A stretch of 64,000 nt of DNA from Capsaspora owczarzaki ATCC 30864 (lineage: Eukaryota; Opisthokonta; Filasterea): positions 1,176,882 through 1,240,881 of the forward strand of contig NW_011887292.1 of assembly GCF_000151315.2 (NCBI RefSeq), written 5' to 3'. The notes below the pieces were generated by a model that did not search any database, was not told where the DNA came from, and was given only the letters and a program-made list of their open reading frames with translations. This document shows, piece by piece, positions 13,974 to 26,856 of the stretch. The position numbers and the translations under genes are program-made. Positions within the stretch are counted from its first letter, which is position 1. Each line of letters begins with the position of its first letter.

Positions 13974-14490
13974 TCAGGGTGCCTCTTCTTTGATCTCGGG
14001 TGCCTCGTCTTTGATCTTGGGTGCCGTCGAAGGTGCATCGGCGGCAAGAGGTACGTCCGCAGCAGCAAGCGGGACATCTGAATTGCTCTCATCGTGATTG
14101 TGCTCGTGCTGTTCTGCATCAAGGCGAGTCTTCTTGACAGGCGGCGGTGAATCGGTCTCGCGCGTGGGCTGCCCAGCAGCTTCCGCTGACGTTTCACCGG
14201 CCTGCGAACTGCTGGATGGAGTTGCAGAATCTTCTGCACCGTCATCCTCATCTTCACGCGGGCGCCTCGCGGGCTTCGGAGGTTCCTCTCGAGCCGGTTG
14301 TGGCGCTGTTGCCATTGGGGGCGCAACCGGTTGTTGCTGGGTTTGGTAGGGCTGCATGTAGTATTGCTGTTGCTGCTGCTGTTGGAGTTGTTGGAGTTGC
14401 TGTTGTGGTTGTTGTTGTAGGAGTTGCTGTTGGTGCAGGGGTTGTTGGGGCTGTTGGTAGTGCTGGTGCTGCTGGTGCTGCTGCTGCTGG

Positions 14491-14549
<59 letters not shown>

Positions 14550-17500
14550 GTACTGTTGCTGCTGCTGCATGTGCATTGTCGCGGCACTCGTAACAGAATT
14601 AAAGCTGCGCGCAGAATCCGGCGGCGCTTGCCAAGGATGGGTCAAGGAGGTCAGGGCAATGGTCGGGACTGGGGTGGAAACCTGACCATCATCTGGCACG
14701 ACTGCAATGTGGCCGAGAAGAACAGTGGTCAAACCGAGCCGAGCATGCACTTCGGTTTCGAGCAAAAAGTAAATGTACTCGTCAACGAGCAAACGAACGA
14801 GATGGAAGGAGCCAAACGTCGGGCAGCTGCGGAGAGTCAAATCGCGAATGACGAGCGACGAGTAGTAGCTCCATCGCAGAATAAACTGGCAGGCGCGATA
14901 CGAAAACTCGGCAAGGTTGGCGGCCGCTGCCGGAGAAGGCTGCAAAACACTCGTAAACATGCTGCTGGAAGACGATGCGGATGTGGCAGACAGAGGAGCG
15001 CCCATGACGCCGTTCATTGGAGGAGAGACGGCCAGTGCCGTGCCGAAAAACCCGTGCTTGGGTCGCGATGATGATGCGGATTGCTGCGAGATCGGGGACT
15101 TTGAAATGACGAGCTCGTCCACAACACTCTCCACCCAAAGCGTCAGGTCGTCCAGTCGTGAAATGCTCCGCAGCATTTGACGGAATTGCTCACCCAATCG
15201 TGCAACGACGGTTTCATCGCAGCGAGTCACCCAGCCGGCCTGATCGTGGACGCTGTCAAACTCGATGCGCGCAATAGCGGCATTCATGGCCTGGAGCTGC
15301 TCGGGATGCTGGATCATGGAGTGCACGGCTTGGCCCAGGTACGTGATGGCCGTTCGTCGACGAAGGGTTCGCGCGAACGTCGAGGAGGCGCGCACAAGCA
15401 CCTCGACCACCTGCGGAGGCACGCAGGATTCGAGGGCATCGAGCATGGATCCCTCAATGTTCTTGGCAAACATGCGCACAGCCTGCAGGTTTTCGACAGG
15501 ACGAACCAATTCGGGGACGAGATGCCTGGTGAGTCCGTCGTACATGGCCAGGTCTGCTCGCTCCAGGAACTCCAGCACGGCTGGATGAGAAACAAACTGG
15601 ATTTGAATGGCCGAGAAGGCGCTGAAGGGCAGATTCAGCACCTGGATGGGCTGTTGCACGGCCGGGTTGGACGGCTGCCCGACAGGGCCAACGCCGTTCG
15701 CAGAAATGTGCCAGAATGTGTGCCAGACAAGTGGAATCAGTTCAAACTGGTGCGCCAGACCCAGCGCGAATACAACACGGCAAAGTTGACGGTGAGTGTG
15801 CACAAACTCGTCGCGCAAAGCGATCGCTTCGGCCCCCGAACCAGCAGGGAACACGTTGGGATCGATCGTCGCGGTGAACCGCGGCAGCATGTCGAGGAAG
15901 GCTGGGTTGATTTGCGTGGAGGGATCAACACCCGAAGAGCCACCTGTGCCCGGCGCAGGCACCGAAATCACCACGTAGGGGAGTGGTGCTGGGGCAGGGG
16001 GCGGTGGTTGCGGGGCAAGCTGATGCTGCTGTTGCGGCGGTTGTTGCTGTTGCTGTTGCTGCTGTTGTTGACGCAGGTACATGGTGCTGGGGGAGCTCGG
16101 TGTCGGGTAAAAGCCAGGTTGGTAGCCAGGGGGTGGCGCCAGATGCGATGGGAGTGGCGGCGCCATGCCGAATGCAGGGGGAGCGAAAGGCATCGCCTGC
16201 TGTTGCAAGTGCGGCGGTAGCGGGTGACCACCGGCATGGGGAGCGGCACCATACTCGACCGGGCCGCCCATGCCAGCCGCATCGGGCGCGGGATTCGCGT
16301 CGGCAGCGCGCGACTTTGGTGGGCGACCACGGCGCGGCTTCTTGTCCGATTCCCCTTCCAGCGACCACACGGTAATCTTACCAGAGCGACGAGGGTCGCT
16401 GTTGGGACCCTCGCCGCTGTCGTTATCATCGCCATCATCGTCGGCGGCGATGGCGTTGGCACCGCCGCGCTGGTTGCCTCGCGTCACTGCATGCAAATGC
16501 TCGTGCTGGGCGCTCAGCTGCTCGTACAACGGAGAAGATGGCTTGACGCGCATGCCAATGTAGTGGTACTTTGACTGCCCGCGCATCCCCAGCCGCCGAG
16601 TGCGGAGCTTGGGAAAGACCTGGCGGATGAGCTTGCCAAAGGTGGCCGCGTTGATACGCGCCAGCTTGTTTTCGCGGCAGTGATCCTCATAGCTCGCATA
16701 AATGATGCCACGGGCCACGCTGCCAGTCGACGCCTGCTCAAAGTGGGTCGTCAACCACACCAGCGCGGCTGGAGAGTGCCGCACATAGCCGCTGCCAACA
16801 CGATGGGAGCCCTGCATGTCGTCGTCGTCCTCTTCCTCTTCGTCGCCTTCCCCGTCGTCGCCGTCCGCACCATCCCCCATGTCGTCGTCGCCATTTGGGG
16901 TGAGTTTTCGTGCATGCAAGTCGTCCAACGAGCCATTCGACGGGCCGTGCATTGCGGGGAGGTTGTGCATCATGGGCGGTTGCGGCGGCTGTTGTTGCTG
17001 GTGCTGCAGATAGGGAACTGGCTGCTCGTTTGGCGACAATGTTCGCAACTGTGCGCCTGCTGGCACAAGCAGTTGGGTTTGTGACAAGGACTGTTGCGGT
17101 GGCATGAGCATCTGCTGCCGTTGCTGGAATTGCTGTTGTTGCTGCTGCAGCATTTGCTGTTGCGGCGATGGCTGTTGCTGCTGTTGTTGTGGTTGCTGTA
17201 GTTGCGGTGGTGCTTGCGACGCCATGTAGATGGGCTGCTGGTGTGGTGATGCAAGTGCCGGTGCTGGTTGTCCGACGTAAAAGCCGTGTTGCTGAGGATA
17301 GGGCTGCGACGGCGCCATGAACTGCTGGTTTGGCACATGCAGGAACTGCTGTGGTGGCTGCCCTGGCTGTTGCTGCATGAACATTTGGTCGTGCACTTGC
17401 TGCTGCTGCTGCTGCTGCTGCTGCGGCTGCTGCAGATATTGATGACTCGGAGCGGGCAGCAGGCCCATTGCAGGGCTGTTTGCGCTGGCGGCCGACGCGC

Positions 17501-17630
17501 TGCCCATGCTCGTCATGCTGGCGACTGGGCTGATGCGCATGCCACCCATCTGCACCATGGGGCCTGGATTTGGCTGAAATGACCCTGGGTGGTGGTTTAC
17601 GAGGAAGGGCATGCTGGTGGTCGTGTCCAT
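13974..17630 (-). CDS. RFX: RFX-family winged-helix transcription factor, 1218 aa
   Basis: Sequence-specific transcription factor that binds X-box promoters; in animals RFX1-4 drive ciliary genes. The coding region is a single uninterrupted exon. The start at 17630 (MDTTTSM) lies just after a splice-acceptor-like TTGTTTTGCAG, suggesting an intron in the 5' leader. The RFX DNA-binding domain is at about residues 288-367 (FGKLIRQVFP, LRTRRLGMRGQSKYHY). An extended region like RFX1-3 follows, with TLRRRTAITYLGQAVHSM near 757 and LVIRDLTLRSCPTFGSFH near 920. The N-terminus and the ~1025-1090 region are long Gln tracts coded by CAG/CAA (CTG on the + strand at about 14464-14575). An AT-hook-like RRGRPPKS lies after the DNA-binding domain, at about residue 436. 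Length is somewhat above animal RFX1. Confidence 0.93.
14464..14575 (-). repeat. coding CAG/CAA trinucleotide repeat (polyglutamine) in RFX
   Basis: CTG/TTG repeat on the + strand encodes a near-pure Gln tract of about 20 residues, flanked by Gln/His-rich sequence, in the C-terminal part of the RFX protein. A second Gln run is at about 17395-17435 near the N-terminus. Length is expected to vary between isolates. Confidence 0.9.
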
Positions 17631-22505
<4,875 letters not shown>

Positions 22506-22652
22506 GAGGCGTTTGAGCTTGTTTTGTTCGTCATTCAACAAAAATTGCAATTTCACTTCTGCAGTCATTACAACCCGAAGATCTTTAATGGAACAACATT
22601 TTAGAAATACAAAACAATGCAAATTCACCAGTCAGCCTTGGCAGAGCTCTGC

Positions 22653-25349
22653 TCAGTTCCATGTTGTACCGACTTGTGCGATTGCGGGATTTGCAAACCG
22701 TCCGCATGGACGATTGCGTCGATTCTGTCGCCAGTAGGTTCCGCAAGCTATGCAAAAAAAAACAGACAGGAGCGGAGAGGGAGGAGGGGTAAGCGGCGAG
22801 TAAGGGTGAATCACAGGTCAAAAAGGCACCAAACAACCAACCCACATACCGAAGCAAAGCGGTTGGTTTGGCAAAGCGCCATGCAGCCACTCGGGAGTGT
22901 CAAACACACCGCAGTTTGCGCAAATGTCTGTCATTGCAGCGTAGCACGATTGATGTCAGAAAAAAAATGGAGAACAGCAAGCAATAGGTCGCTGAGACAC
23001 CTTACAATCAGCAGCTTCGTCCGTATTGTCAATATCAAGCTTGGTATCGACGGTCGAGGACGCGCCGGTGGTGAAAGGTAGCGGCACCGAAACGGTAGTG
23101 GAACGGCCGGTACTTGTTGAGTTGGAGGCGACTTTAACTGGTTGCTGGACATTCAAGGCTGCACGAATCGCAGCCGAAGGCGGTATTTCGAGTGCATTCG
23201 GGAATGACGGGAGCAGATGTCGTAGGTTGCTAAAAACAGAGGCCGCTGCATCGCAAAAAGAAAAAAAACACATACATAGTGAGGCAACCCCAATCAGAAC
23301 AAAATAGGTCAGAGACGTGAAATGCGTACCAACTGCAGCCTCATTCGATCCAGGAGATGACAAAAGTTGAGTGGATAATCGTTCAATTTGCTGCAGTTGC
23401 AGAGATCGCAGCAAAGCCGAGTTGGCCGACAGAATGACTGCCACTTTGTCTCTGAAGAAAAGAATCATAGACGCGTGCCATCAGTCAGTCGCAGATGAAC
23501 AAAACAAAGTTGCAACCTGTCACATTGACCACATTCTGCAAGTGCTTTTTGTCTTCTCGTGATTCAAAATGAACGTACTTGGCTGAAATGCCTGCAACAG
23601 ATCCAAGCTGCTGCTGAGCTTGATGGTTCAAGGCATCAATCTCTTGCTGCGAGGTGCGCATCGACGCAATGCGCTTTGCTTCGTCCACGTCGTTAAACAA
23701 GAGCGCAGATTCGTCCTTGCTGAGACTTGCATGAGCAGAGTTGTAAGTCGGTGCAAAAGTTGCTCTCGCGCCATAGGAGGTGAACACGACTATGGCGGGT
23801 TTTCAAACGAAAGAAGAGCCCAAGTTCAAGTCAGACCGATATGCAGGCATCTACCCGTCGTACGCAATCAAAGAACGCAATCAAAGAACCTACCCGGCGA
23901 CACAATGTGGCTTTGTGGCTCGTTCAACGGAACAATCGGAACTGGGACATTGGAGGCATAGCTTTCTAATGTGGGCACCGAAGCAGGCATTGCATGCGGC
24001 ACTAGATCGACCCAATCGCAGCAGACAGCGAAACCAACATCAAAGCCCATGTCAAAACCAAAACCAAAAACGAAAACCAAACAAACATTAAAACTTAACT
24101 GCCACCCCCATTGAGCAACAAACCAGTCACTCGACTTACCGCTAAGTCCGAGAGGAGTGCTTGCTGTCATCGGAGCTAAACCGGAAGCTAACGTCGCATT
24201 CGCACTTGCTACGAGGGAGCTGGCAGTCGCATCGTCAAGAGGTGCGGCCGGTGTTGCACGTGCACGGCGAGGAAGCGCATGTCGAGCCAACACTTCTGGT
24301 GCCAAAGCAGCAATCTCGGCAGGAGTCAACGCAGTAACAGACTGGCGCCGGTGGTGTGGCTGCTGGTGCTGTTGTTGCTGAGGGCTGTGCTGTGAACTTG
24401 TGCGAGACTGCTGATGTTGAAGAAACTCTTGTTGCTGCTGGAGCAGGAGCTGTTGGTGTTGGTGGTGCGGCTGATGAGATTGCGGTTGTGGCGTTCGTCC
24501 TTGCAATTGTTGGTGCTGTTGGAGCTGGTGTTGCTGCAGTTGCAGCTGTTGTTGTTGCTGCTGTTGCAAGAGCTGCTGCTGCGACATTTTCTCGTCGCGA
24601 GACAGTTTCTGCTTGGGTGTTGATGCAGCGCCTGCCTCGTTGTCGCTGGCACCTCGGCTGCTGGCAGCAACTGGGGTTGGCGGGGCGCGCAGCTTTTGGC
24701 GATCGCGCTCGAACGCCGTCAGGGTTTTGGGCACCAGACGGTCCACGGACATCTGGAGCAGCTTCTTGGCTTGACGATGGTAGTGGTTCTCTGGGCCATT
24801 GTAGTGCATGCAATTGGTAAAGACGAGCTTGAGGTGGCGCTCGAAGGCTGCGAGACTGGGATACGCTCCGGCTTCAATGTTGCCGCGCATGGTTCGAAAG
24901 TCCATCGGCTCGCCAATCACGTCGGCATAGTCCGGCGCATCCTCGGCGCTCACTGGCTCTGCAAAGAACATGTACTCGTCGCGGCCTTCGACGTCCTTGA
25001 GCAGCTGGCGCAAGTGCTGCTGGAGCAAGGCCCGCTCGGCGTCCGTCGCAGGCGCTCCCGGCTCGCCAGGCGCCACGTGCACCTGCGGCAATGGCGGCGC
25101 CATTCCTGGAGCAATCCCATCGCTGGCAACTGAAGCAGCAGCAGCAGTAGATGGAGCGGTAGAGGTAGGAGCAGCGATCGACCCTTTGGCGCCATTTCCA
25201 CTCTGCTGCTCCTGCTGCTCCTGCTGCTGCTGCTCCTGCTGCGATAGTCCAGTGCCCTGCCCGCTCGGCTCGGCGTTCTCCAATCGCGCGATCTTGGCCA
25301 TCGGCTCGTCGTCTTGCGCGCCGTCCAGCGAGTGCTTGCGATCCGACAT
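22653..25349 (-). CDS. BRD7/9-like bromodomain protein with C-terminal GATA-type zinc finger, 7 exons, 687 aa
   Basis: Probable chromatin reader of a SWI/SNF (BAF/PBAF-type) complex. Exons (descending) 25349-24140, 24001-23894, 23789-23579, 23451-23330, 23245-23006, 22927-22850, 22747-22653; they sum to 688 codons. The bromodomain spans about residues 100-205, with MDFRTMRGNIEAGAYPS and the acetyl-lysine-binding Asn in CMHYNGPEN. A long Gln/His-rich stretch follows. Exon 3 encodes FAPTYNSAHASLSKDES, which matches the conserved BRD7/BRD9 motif downstream of the bromodomain. The last two exons build a finger Cys633-x2-Cys636-x18-Cys655-x2-Cys658, followed by GTYWRQNRRNRPCG, the layout of a GATA-type zinc finger. 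I know of no animal BRD7/9 with such a finger. Both finger exons have canonical splice sites and correct phase. Confidence 0.85.
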
Positions 25350-25606: not shown

Positions 25607-26856
25607 ATGATTCAAACAATTCTGAGTGTCGCTGCCATCATTGCGACCGTCGCCGTGTTTGCATCCAGCATGTAAATGTTGATTGAGAGGGGGTGGTTCA
25701 AAAATGGCTTGTTTTTGTGGGTTTTGCTTTTGTGTCTGCGTTGCTGCAGTACTGACGACGAGCTCCACGACAATGACAGACCAGCCGTTCGTGAAATCGA
25801 GCGCAGTAGAACCACTGGCGCGACTTCCATCGTGCCCTACGTCGCAGGCATTGTCAAGTAAGACGAGCAACGAACACATCCCTCTTGCTGTGCTCGCGCT
25901 GACCGTGCTGTTGGGTGTGCCCGCGTTGGGTTGGTTGTCAACTGTGCAGCGCTGCGAATTGTTAACTCACGCATTGTCTGTCATACACCACCGTGACAAC
26001 ACAGCTGCGTACTATGGACAAGCTATGGCTTGCTCATCAGTGATCCAACGCAAATCATTGTGAATGGCATCGGCTCCGGCTTGTACATTTACTACCTGAC
26101 AATTTACTTTTCCTACACCAACGACGCGGTGAGTTTCCGTCCCTTCTCACTTGCACACTTTTGTTCAACCGCTGATAGTCGAGAGGGATTGGCATGATCT
26201 GGATCTAACGATGGATGCATCATGATGTGCTCGCTCTGTTTCGCTGCCCTGTTCTTTTGCTCTTTTTTTTTTTTTTTCAATTTGGCAAACGTGAAACTCG
26301 TGTCAAAACGCCAAACCAGGTCACCGCGCGACGAACGACGTTGCTTGGGTTTTGCTACATTGCAGCTGCCTTTACGTGGGTCGGAGGCATGTCCACCACC
26401 CGTGCCGAAGTTACCTGGAACCTTGGCATTGTTGGAGCGCTGACCACGATTCTGTTCTTTGCAGCACCTCTCTCGCTGTTGGTAAGGGAGTGCCATGCGC
26501 GCTTCTGATGATCACGCCCTGAAAACGACTGACATTTTTGATGTCGCTGTCATTTTCGTTTTTGGTTTTTGGTTGTTGTTTGTGTTTTCTGCTGGTAGGT
26601 GCGAATCGTCAAAACCAAGTCCACAGACGGCTTGTCGCGGCCACTGGCATGGCTCGGTTGCCTCGTGTGTATGTTGTGGGTTGCGTACGGACGGAACGAT
26701 CCGTTTGTTTGGCAGCCAAACGCCCTCGGACTGCTCCTCTCGCTTTGTCAAGTCGCGCTCCTCTTTCTCTATCCGAGCACATCCCCAAGTAACGATTCGA
26801 GCAATGGCCAGGGTCCAATGGGTAGCTCTGGCCTCCACATTAGTTTAGGGAAATAA
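25607..26856 (+). CDS. SWEET: SWEET (MtN3/saliva) sugar transporter, 5 exons, 238 aa
   Basis: Bidirectional membrane sugar uniporter with two triple-helix MtN3 repeats joined by a linker helix (7 membrane segments). Exons 25607-25671, 25750-25857, 26005-26128, 26320-26481, 26599-26856; 239 codons with stop. Repeat 1: VAAIIATVAVFAS, TSIVPYVAGIVNCVLWTSYG, and QIIVNGIGSGLYIYYLTIYF. Repeat 2: LGIVGALTTILFFAAPLSLL, KSTDGLSRPLAWLGCLV, LWVAYG and PNALGLLLSLCQVALLF. These keep the family pattern: Pro-containing helix 1, and a W/YG end followed by an N-containing helix. The loop after helix 1 is longer and more acidic than usual (DDELHDNDRP). The C-terminal tail is short and Ser/Gly-rich. Intron 3 carries a 15-T run at 26263-26277. 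Confidence 0.93.

Follow-up and report, generated by a model that had tools for sequence, protein, structure and literature searches.

The window analysed here, a stretch of 64,000 nucleotides from Capsaspora owczarzaki, carries a gene whose predicted product is well supported as a protein collinear with BRD7/9, to which a GATA-type zinc finger has been added past the last conserved segment. In the PBAF and ncBAF remodellers, BRD7 and BRD9 are the distinguishing subunits. We incline to the view that this gene is the BRD7/9 (SMARCI) of the genome, a subunit of SWI/SNF, and that its finger gives it a further contact on the nucleosome or on linker DNA; this contact is likelier to be a non-specific one with DNA, or one with histone tails, than recognition of GATA sites. 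Judged by its sequence, this GATA-finger arrangement of a known subunit appears to be real, and it is new to us.

Gene structure and genomic surroundings

Re-reading and joining of the minus strand gave the same coordinates, the same number of exons and the same introns 5 and 6 as the initial annotation of this DNA. The features of the gene are the following:

22653-25349, minus strand: BRD7/9-like gene, complete coding region, 7 exons, joined open frame of 687 aa
25349-24140, 24001-23894, 23789-23579, 23451-23330, 23245-23006, 22927-22850 and 22747-22653, minus strand: exons 1 to 7
22928-23005, minus strand: intron 5, GT-AG, 78 nt; its retention brings an in-frame stop, so that the frame ends at 22956 and the finger is lost
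22748-22849, minus strand: intron 6, GT-AG, 102 nt, interrupting the finger; if it is retained, the frame meets a stop within it
22584-22589, minus strand: ATTAAA, candidate poly(A) signal, about 64 nt past the stop codon

After joining of the 7 exons, the predicted frame is open throughout (687 codons and a stop), and all six introns, with lengths of 138, 104, 127, 84, 78 and 102 nt, have GT-AG ends. The ATTAAA was called with the poly(A) signal consensus. The two halves of the finger, encoded by exons 6 and 7, form a correct finger only when intron 6 is excised at exactly that place.

Several other genes are found around this one. The convergent ORF that lies downstream on the plus strand (21546-22505) encodes a zinc knuckle (zf-CCHC_3) with long stretches rich in Lys and in Arg/Ser behind it; its predicted product is like a splicing-related protein and presumably resembles SREK1IP1. 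Upstream, the ORF at 26209-26508 gave no match when compared with Pfam, and beyond it there are fragments of a gene for a helicase of Mtr4/Ski2 type (DSHCT, MTR4 beta-barrel, DEAD). Besides, an RFX transcription factor is encoded on the minus strand at 13977-17708, where the RFX DNA-binding domain (8.3e-32) and the RFX BCD (4.5e-59) lie in one frame; this is the one RFX match over the cut-off in the genome.

Domain organisation and identity of the protein

The initial annotation had proposed a domain scan of the joined protein. In the Pfam search, which covered matches up to E 10, the bromodomain, DUF3512 and GATA profiles each scored over their curated cut-offs, and one more match stood at 5.6. 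The domains and conserved segments are placed as follows:

24762-25010, minus strand: bromodomain, aa 114-196, exon 1; Pfam PF00439, 71.8 bits, E 4.8e-20
23692-23924, minus strand: DUF3512 core, aa 430-472, exons 2 and 3 (23924-23894, 23789-23692); Pfam PF12024, E 9.1e-7
23121-23414, minus strand: BRD7-like C-terminal segment, aa 523-592, exons 4 and 5 (23414-23330, 23245-23121); alignment to human BRD7 547-626
22716-22922, minus strand: GATA-type zinc finger, aa 633-667, part of exon 6 (22922-22850) and part of exon 7 (22747-22716); Pfam PF00320

Given the three Pfam scores (GATA, bromodomain, DUF3512), chance is no serious explanation of this arrangement; chance or wrongly joined exons were rejected on the splice sites, the Pfam matches and the matches to BRD7.

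The bromodomain alone is weak evidence for BRD7/9. Among the best 60 of 414 matches to PDB sequences, polybromo and TAF1 score highest through repeated stretches, and among the single-stretch chains of the same 60 BRD7 (70.5 bits) and BRD9 (68.3) lead with BRD1 (67.3) close to them. In the alignment with BRD7, an Asn of the bromodomain and a Tyr six residues further are identical; we take them to be the acetyl-lysine Asn and the gatekeeper. Between the bromodomain and the DUF3512 core there is a long linker rich in Gln and His, at about 24340-24570 on the minus strand.

The DUF3512 match reaches 29.3 bits against a cut-off of 23.4 and covers 43 of the 186 profile positions (90-132). In a PDB search, the 154-aa piece behind the linker matched human BRD7 with an E of 1.7e-4 for the whole sequence, through two collinear stretches that are weak when taken singly (i-Evalue 0.15 and 58; the second, 1.1e+02 in another PDB search). 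Direct alignment of the protein from aa 440 onward with BRD7 399-436, a stretch overlapping the DUF3512 core, gave a score of 81, against 20.0±4.2 for shuffled sequences, none of 5000 reaching it. The C-terminal segment aligned to BRD7 547-626 scored 70, against 25.2±4.5, and again 0 of 5000 shuffles reached the score. The BRD7 pieces used here were trimmed to the limits of the HMMER alignment, which somewhat favours their scores. As controls, BRD7 547-626 was aligned to two other parts of the protein, giving scores of 21 and 27 that were reached by 4522 and 2914 of the 5000 shuffles.

The bromodomain, the DUF3512 core and the C-terminal segment, found in this order, argue for a BRD7/9 gene and not for another kind of bromodomain gene. 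The BRD7/9 identity, and hence the link to SWI/SNF, is thus firmer than the initial annotation had supposed, as DUF3512 and a BRD7-type C-terminal segment both match. The finger starts 40 residues behind the latter.

The whole genome (27,456,641 bases in 29 contigs) contains one DUF3512 match, which lies in this gene. A second BRD7/9 gene was rejected on this single match, a search that weak, intron-split cases could escape.

The GATA-type zinc finger

The finger scores 32.4 bits on PF00320, against a cut-off of 26.8 (E 6.7e-8). GATA-type fingers show the spacing C-x2-C-x17-20-C-x2-C, and this one belongs to them by its profile match, its four zinc-ligand Cys (the fourth in exon 7) and its spacer of 18. 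The first reading of the DNA had reported the C-x2-C-x18-C-x2-C spacing, a tail GTYWRQNRRNRPCG and a motif FAPTYNSAHASLS, and the sequence shows all three as described. When compared with PDB sequences, the finger matched GATA factors best, with GATA-3 at the top (5.9e-11 over its whole sequence and 5.5e-5 in the better stretch); neither BRD7 nor BRD9 is among the 21 PDB sequences matched by this query up to E 10.

The finger retains TPxW, the four Cys and a basic tail, RQNRRNRPCGR, that includes NRP. The Arg after Trp and the Asn of CNAC are typical DNA-contact residues in GATA fingers. The finger departs from this pattern of GATA-site readers, with Leu for the Arg and Phe for the Asn, and so lacks both the Arg after Trp and the Asn in the second CxxC by which a GATA transcription factor was recognised here.

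Nine other GATA matches are present in the genome at E <= 0.001 in a profile search, a list from which the finger described here is missing because an intron splits it. The Arg after Trp is kept in 8 of these nine, and the second CxxC contains Asn in 6 of the 8 in which it is readable. One of the nine lies in an open frame (L024:864-2633; G000 C5) that has GATA and BAH matches: its GATA match reached 31.1 bits in the genome search and 26.5 on the frame, against a cut-off of 26.8, and its BAH match 24.5 against 30.8. This frame is possibly MTA-like, encoding a subunit of NuRD type. Another of the nine lies in a single open frame (L005:1093-3096; G000 C13) that combines ankyrin repeats with a GATA finger, an arrangement that looks uncommon. 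A recent paralogue was discarded as the donor of the finger, the nearest other match in the genome being 35% identical (E 7.6e-4) and located in this ankyrin-plus-GATA frame.

Some filamentous-fungal SNF5-type subunits carry a GATA finger; published support for this was not found in the literature searched. The protein described here is not a GATA-finger SNF5 of the fungal kind, since it has no SNF5 match in Pfam up to E 10. The genome has two loci of SNF5 type; 8 kb of each were scanned, and the full finger pattern had no match in them. The half pattern, from the first Cys pair to the Trp, matched 10 times at one locus (L022) and once at the other (L023), none of these matches having TPxW, and they were judged by eye not to be GATA-like. 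A finger common to the SNF5 of this genome was discarded on the missing full pattern in the 8 kb of each locus, a scan that would overlook a finger interrupted by an intron ahead of its Trp. In viral contigs, 47 stretches fit a pattern and none of them was confirmed as a relative.

Possible ligands of the finger

The initial annotation had interpreted the protein as a reader that may contact both acetyl-lysine and DNA. Of that interpretation the BRD7/9 identity and the SWI/SNF link are supported; the DNA contact is conjectural, and two residues typical of DNA reading are replaced. Non-specific DNA or histone-tail binding by the finger appears likelier than recognition of GATA sites, because the finger has lost the two residues of GATA readers while retaining the basic tail with NRP, and by analogy with the finger of MTA1 and with the GATAD2 proteins. 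In the finger of MTA1 the relevant residues are also changed, and a review considers that DNA binding is likely kept there, perhaps without sequence specificity (PMC4244562). The same source describes GATA fingers in the p66/GATAD2A/B proteins of NuRD, which take part in the binding of unmodified histone tails; in MTA1/2, one region that binds RBBP4/7 was mapped by GST pull-downs to a portion containing the GATA-type finger (PMC4244562).

These observations on p66/GATAD2A/B and on the RBBP4/7-binding region, together with the loss of the residues typical of DNA reading, would also suit a finger that is chiefly a protein-binding or structural module and makes no contact with DNA. The histone-binding form of this alternative overlaps with the reading that we favour. 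As a whole it seems doubtful, given that the basic tail suits nucleic acid and that the finger of MTA1 is thought to be probably still DNA-binding (PMC4244562). It is less probable still that the finger is a sequence-specific reader of GATA sites recruiting the remodeller to GATA motifs, so that the subunit would be its own targeting factor. GATA-3 is the best PDB match and TPxW, the four Cys and the basic tail are retained, as such a reader would have them; nevertheless, only one finger is present, and Leu and Phe occupy the positions at which most of the other matches in the genome keep Arg and Asn.

Inclusion of the finger exons

In exons 1-5 codon usage gives the own frame values from 0.14 to 0.35, above those of their other five frames. 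In exon 6 (78 nt) the own frame has 0.15, another frame 0.18 and the best antisense frame 0.24; in exon 7 (95 nt) the own frame has -0.34, a value that includes a stop-codon penalty of -5, and another frame 0.12. Exons 6-7 receive no support from codon usage, and this counts against the predicted finger-bearing gene. The test was trained with 15 ORFs chosen by length alone, and the stretches that it scores in exons 6 and 7 measure only 78 and 95 nt.

This result, and the end of the frame at 22956 when intron 5 is retained, are what speaks for a mature protein that sometimes or always lacks the finger, through retention of intron 5, early polyadenylation or a separate transcript of the finger exons; this is very improbable, as intron 5 is just 78 nt long with canonical ends and phase kept, and a valid finger arises from exons 6 and 7 only when they are spliced in the predicted frame. 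The layout makes a separate transcript for the finger exons unlikely in particular, since a promoter would find little space in the 78 nt separating exon 5 from exon 6; the convergent ORF ends at 22505.

Proposed place of the protein in a SWI/SNF remodeller

The genome has loci of SNF5 type, others for SWIRM and SWIB, and a frame with two bromodomains next to BAH matches, which makes the presence of SWI/SNF partners plausible; SWIRM, SWIB and BAH also occur in other complexes. The search for GLTSCR1 gave zero matches anywhere, and its controls likewise zero.

In human PBAF bound to the nucleosome, BRD7 has an anchor motif situated between Bridge and Fingers, the C-terminal domain of BRD7 binds to helices of SMARCA4 and to a SANT domain of SMARCC, and a weak density within reach of the histone tails is attributed to the BRD7 bromodomain (PMC9741621). 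In the case of BRD9, DUF3512 is sufficient and necessary for the interactions with its subcomplex (PMC6479050), a scaffolding role that has been restated (PMC10831031). The two conserved segments of the Capsaspora protein would correspond to the anchor motif and the C-terminal domain of BRD7, for which the cited passages give no residue numbers. On the reading that we favour, the protein would be held in the remodeller by the DUF3512 core and the C-terminal segment, as BRD7 is in human PBAF; its bromodomain would read histone tails that carry acetyl-lysine, and the finger, which lies 40 residues past the last conserved segment, would add a contact with the nucleosome or with linker DNA.

Comparison with known systems and significance

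As in human BRD7 and BRD9 (SMARCI; PBAF, ncBAF), the bromodomain, the DUF3512 core and the C-terminal segment (shown against BRD7) follow each other in the same order. Unlike them, the protein of Capsaspora has a long Gln-rich linker leading from the bromodomain to the DUF3512 core, and it carries a GATA-type finger at its C-terminus; as the initial annotation had noted, animal BRD7/9 proteins have, to our knowledge, no GATA finger. The protein is also like the BRD7/9 orthologues of fungi and plants, those of U. maydis and R. irregularis and BRD1/2/13 of Arabidopsis being listed as SMARCI subunits in a survey of SWI/SNF subunits that found BRD7/9 orthologues in most of the species examined (PMC9170682). 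The word GATA is absent from the main text of that survey, as distinct from its figures and supplements (PMC9170682). No fusion of a bromodomain with a GATA finger was described in the titles and abstract starts searched, a scope that leaves most subscription papers outside.

A GATA-type finger within a subunit of a chromatin complex is also found in MTA1-3 and GATAD2A/B of NuRD, and the finger of MTA1 likewise departs from the DNA-reading residues (PMC4244562). The finger of Capsaspora differs from those of NuRD in its host protein and in its complex, and its best match in PDB is GATA-3.

Placed at the C-terminus of the only BRD7/9, behind the docking segment, the finger may allow one SWI/SNF subunit to read acetyl-lysine and a second feature of the nucleosome, as a built-in substitute for a recruiting factor; we put this forward tentatively. 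If true, this natural variant, with its finger located past the C-terminal segment for docking, would reveal where BRD7/9 accepts extra nucleosome contacts, and deletion of the added finger as a single domain offers a clean way to test how SWI/SNF subunits evolve targeting modules.
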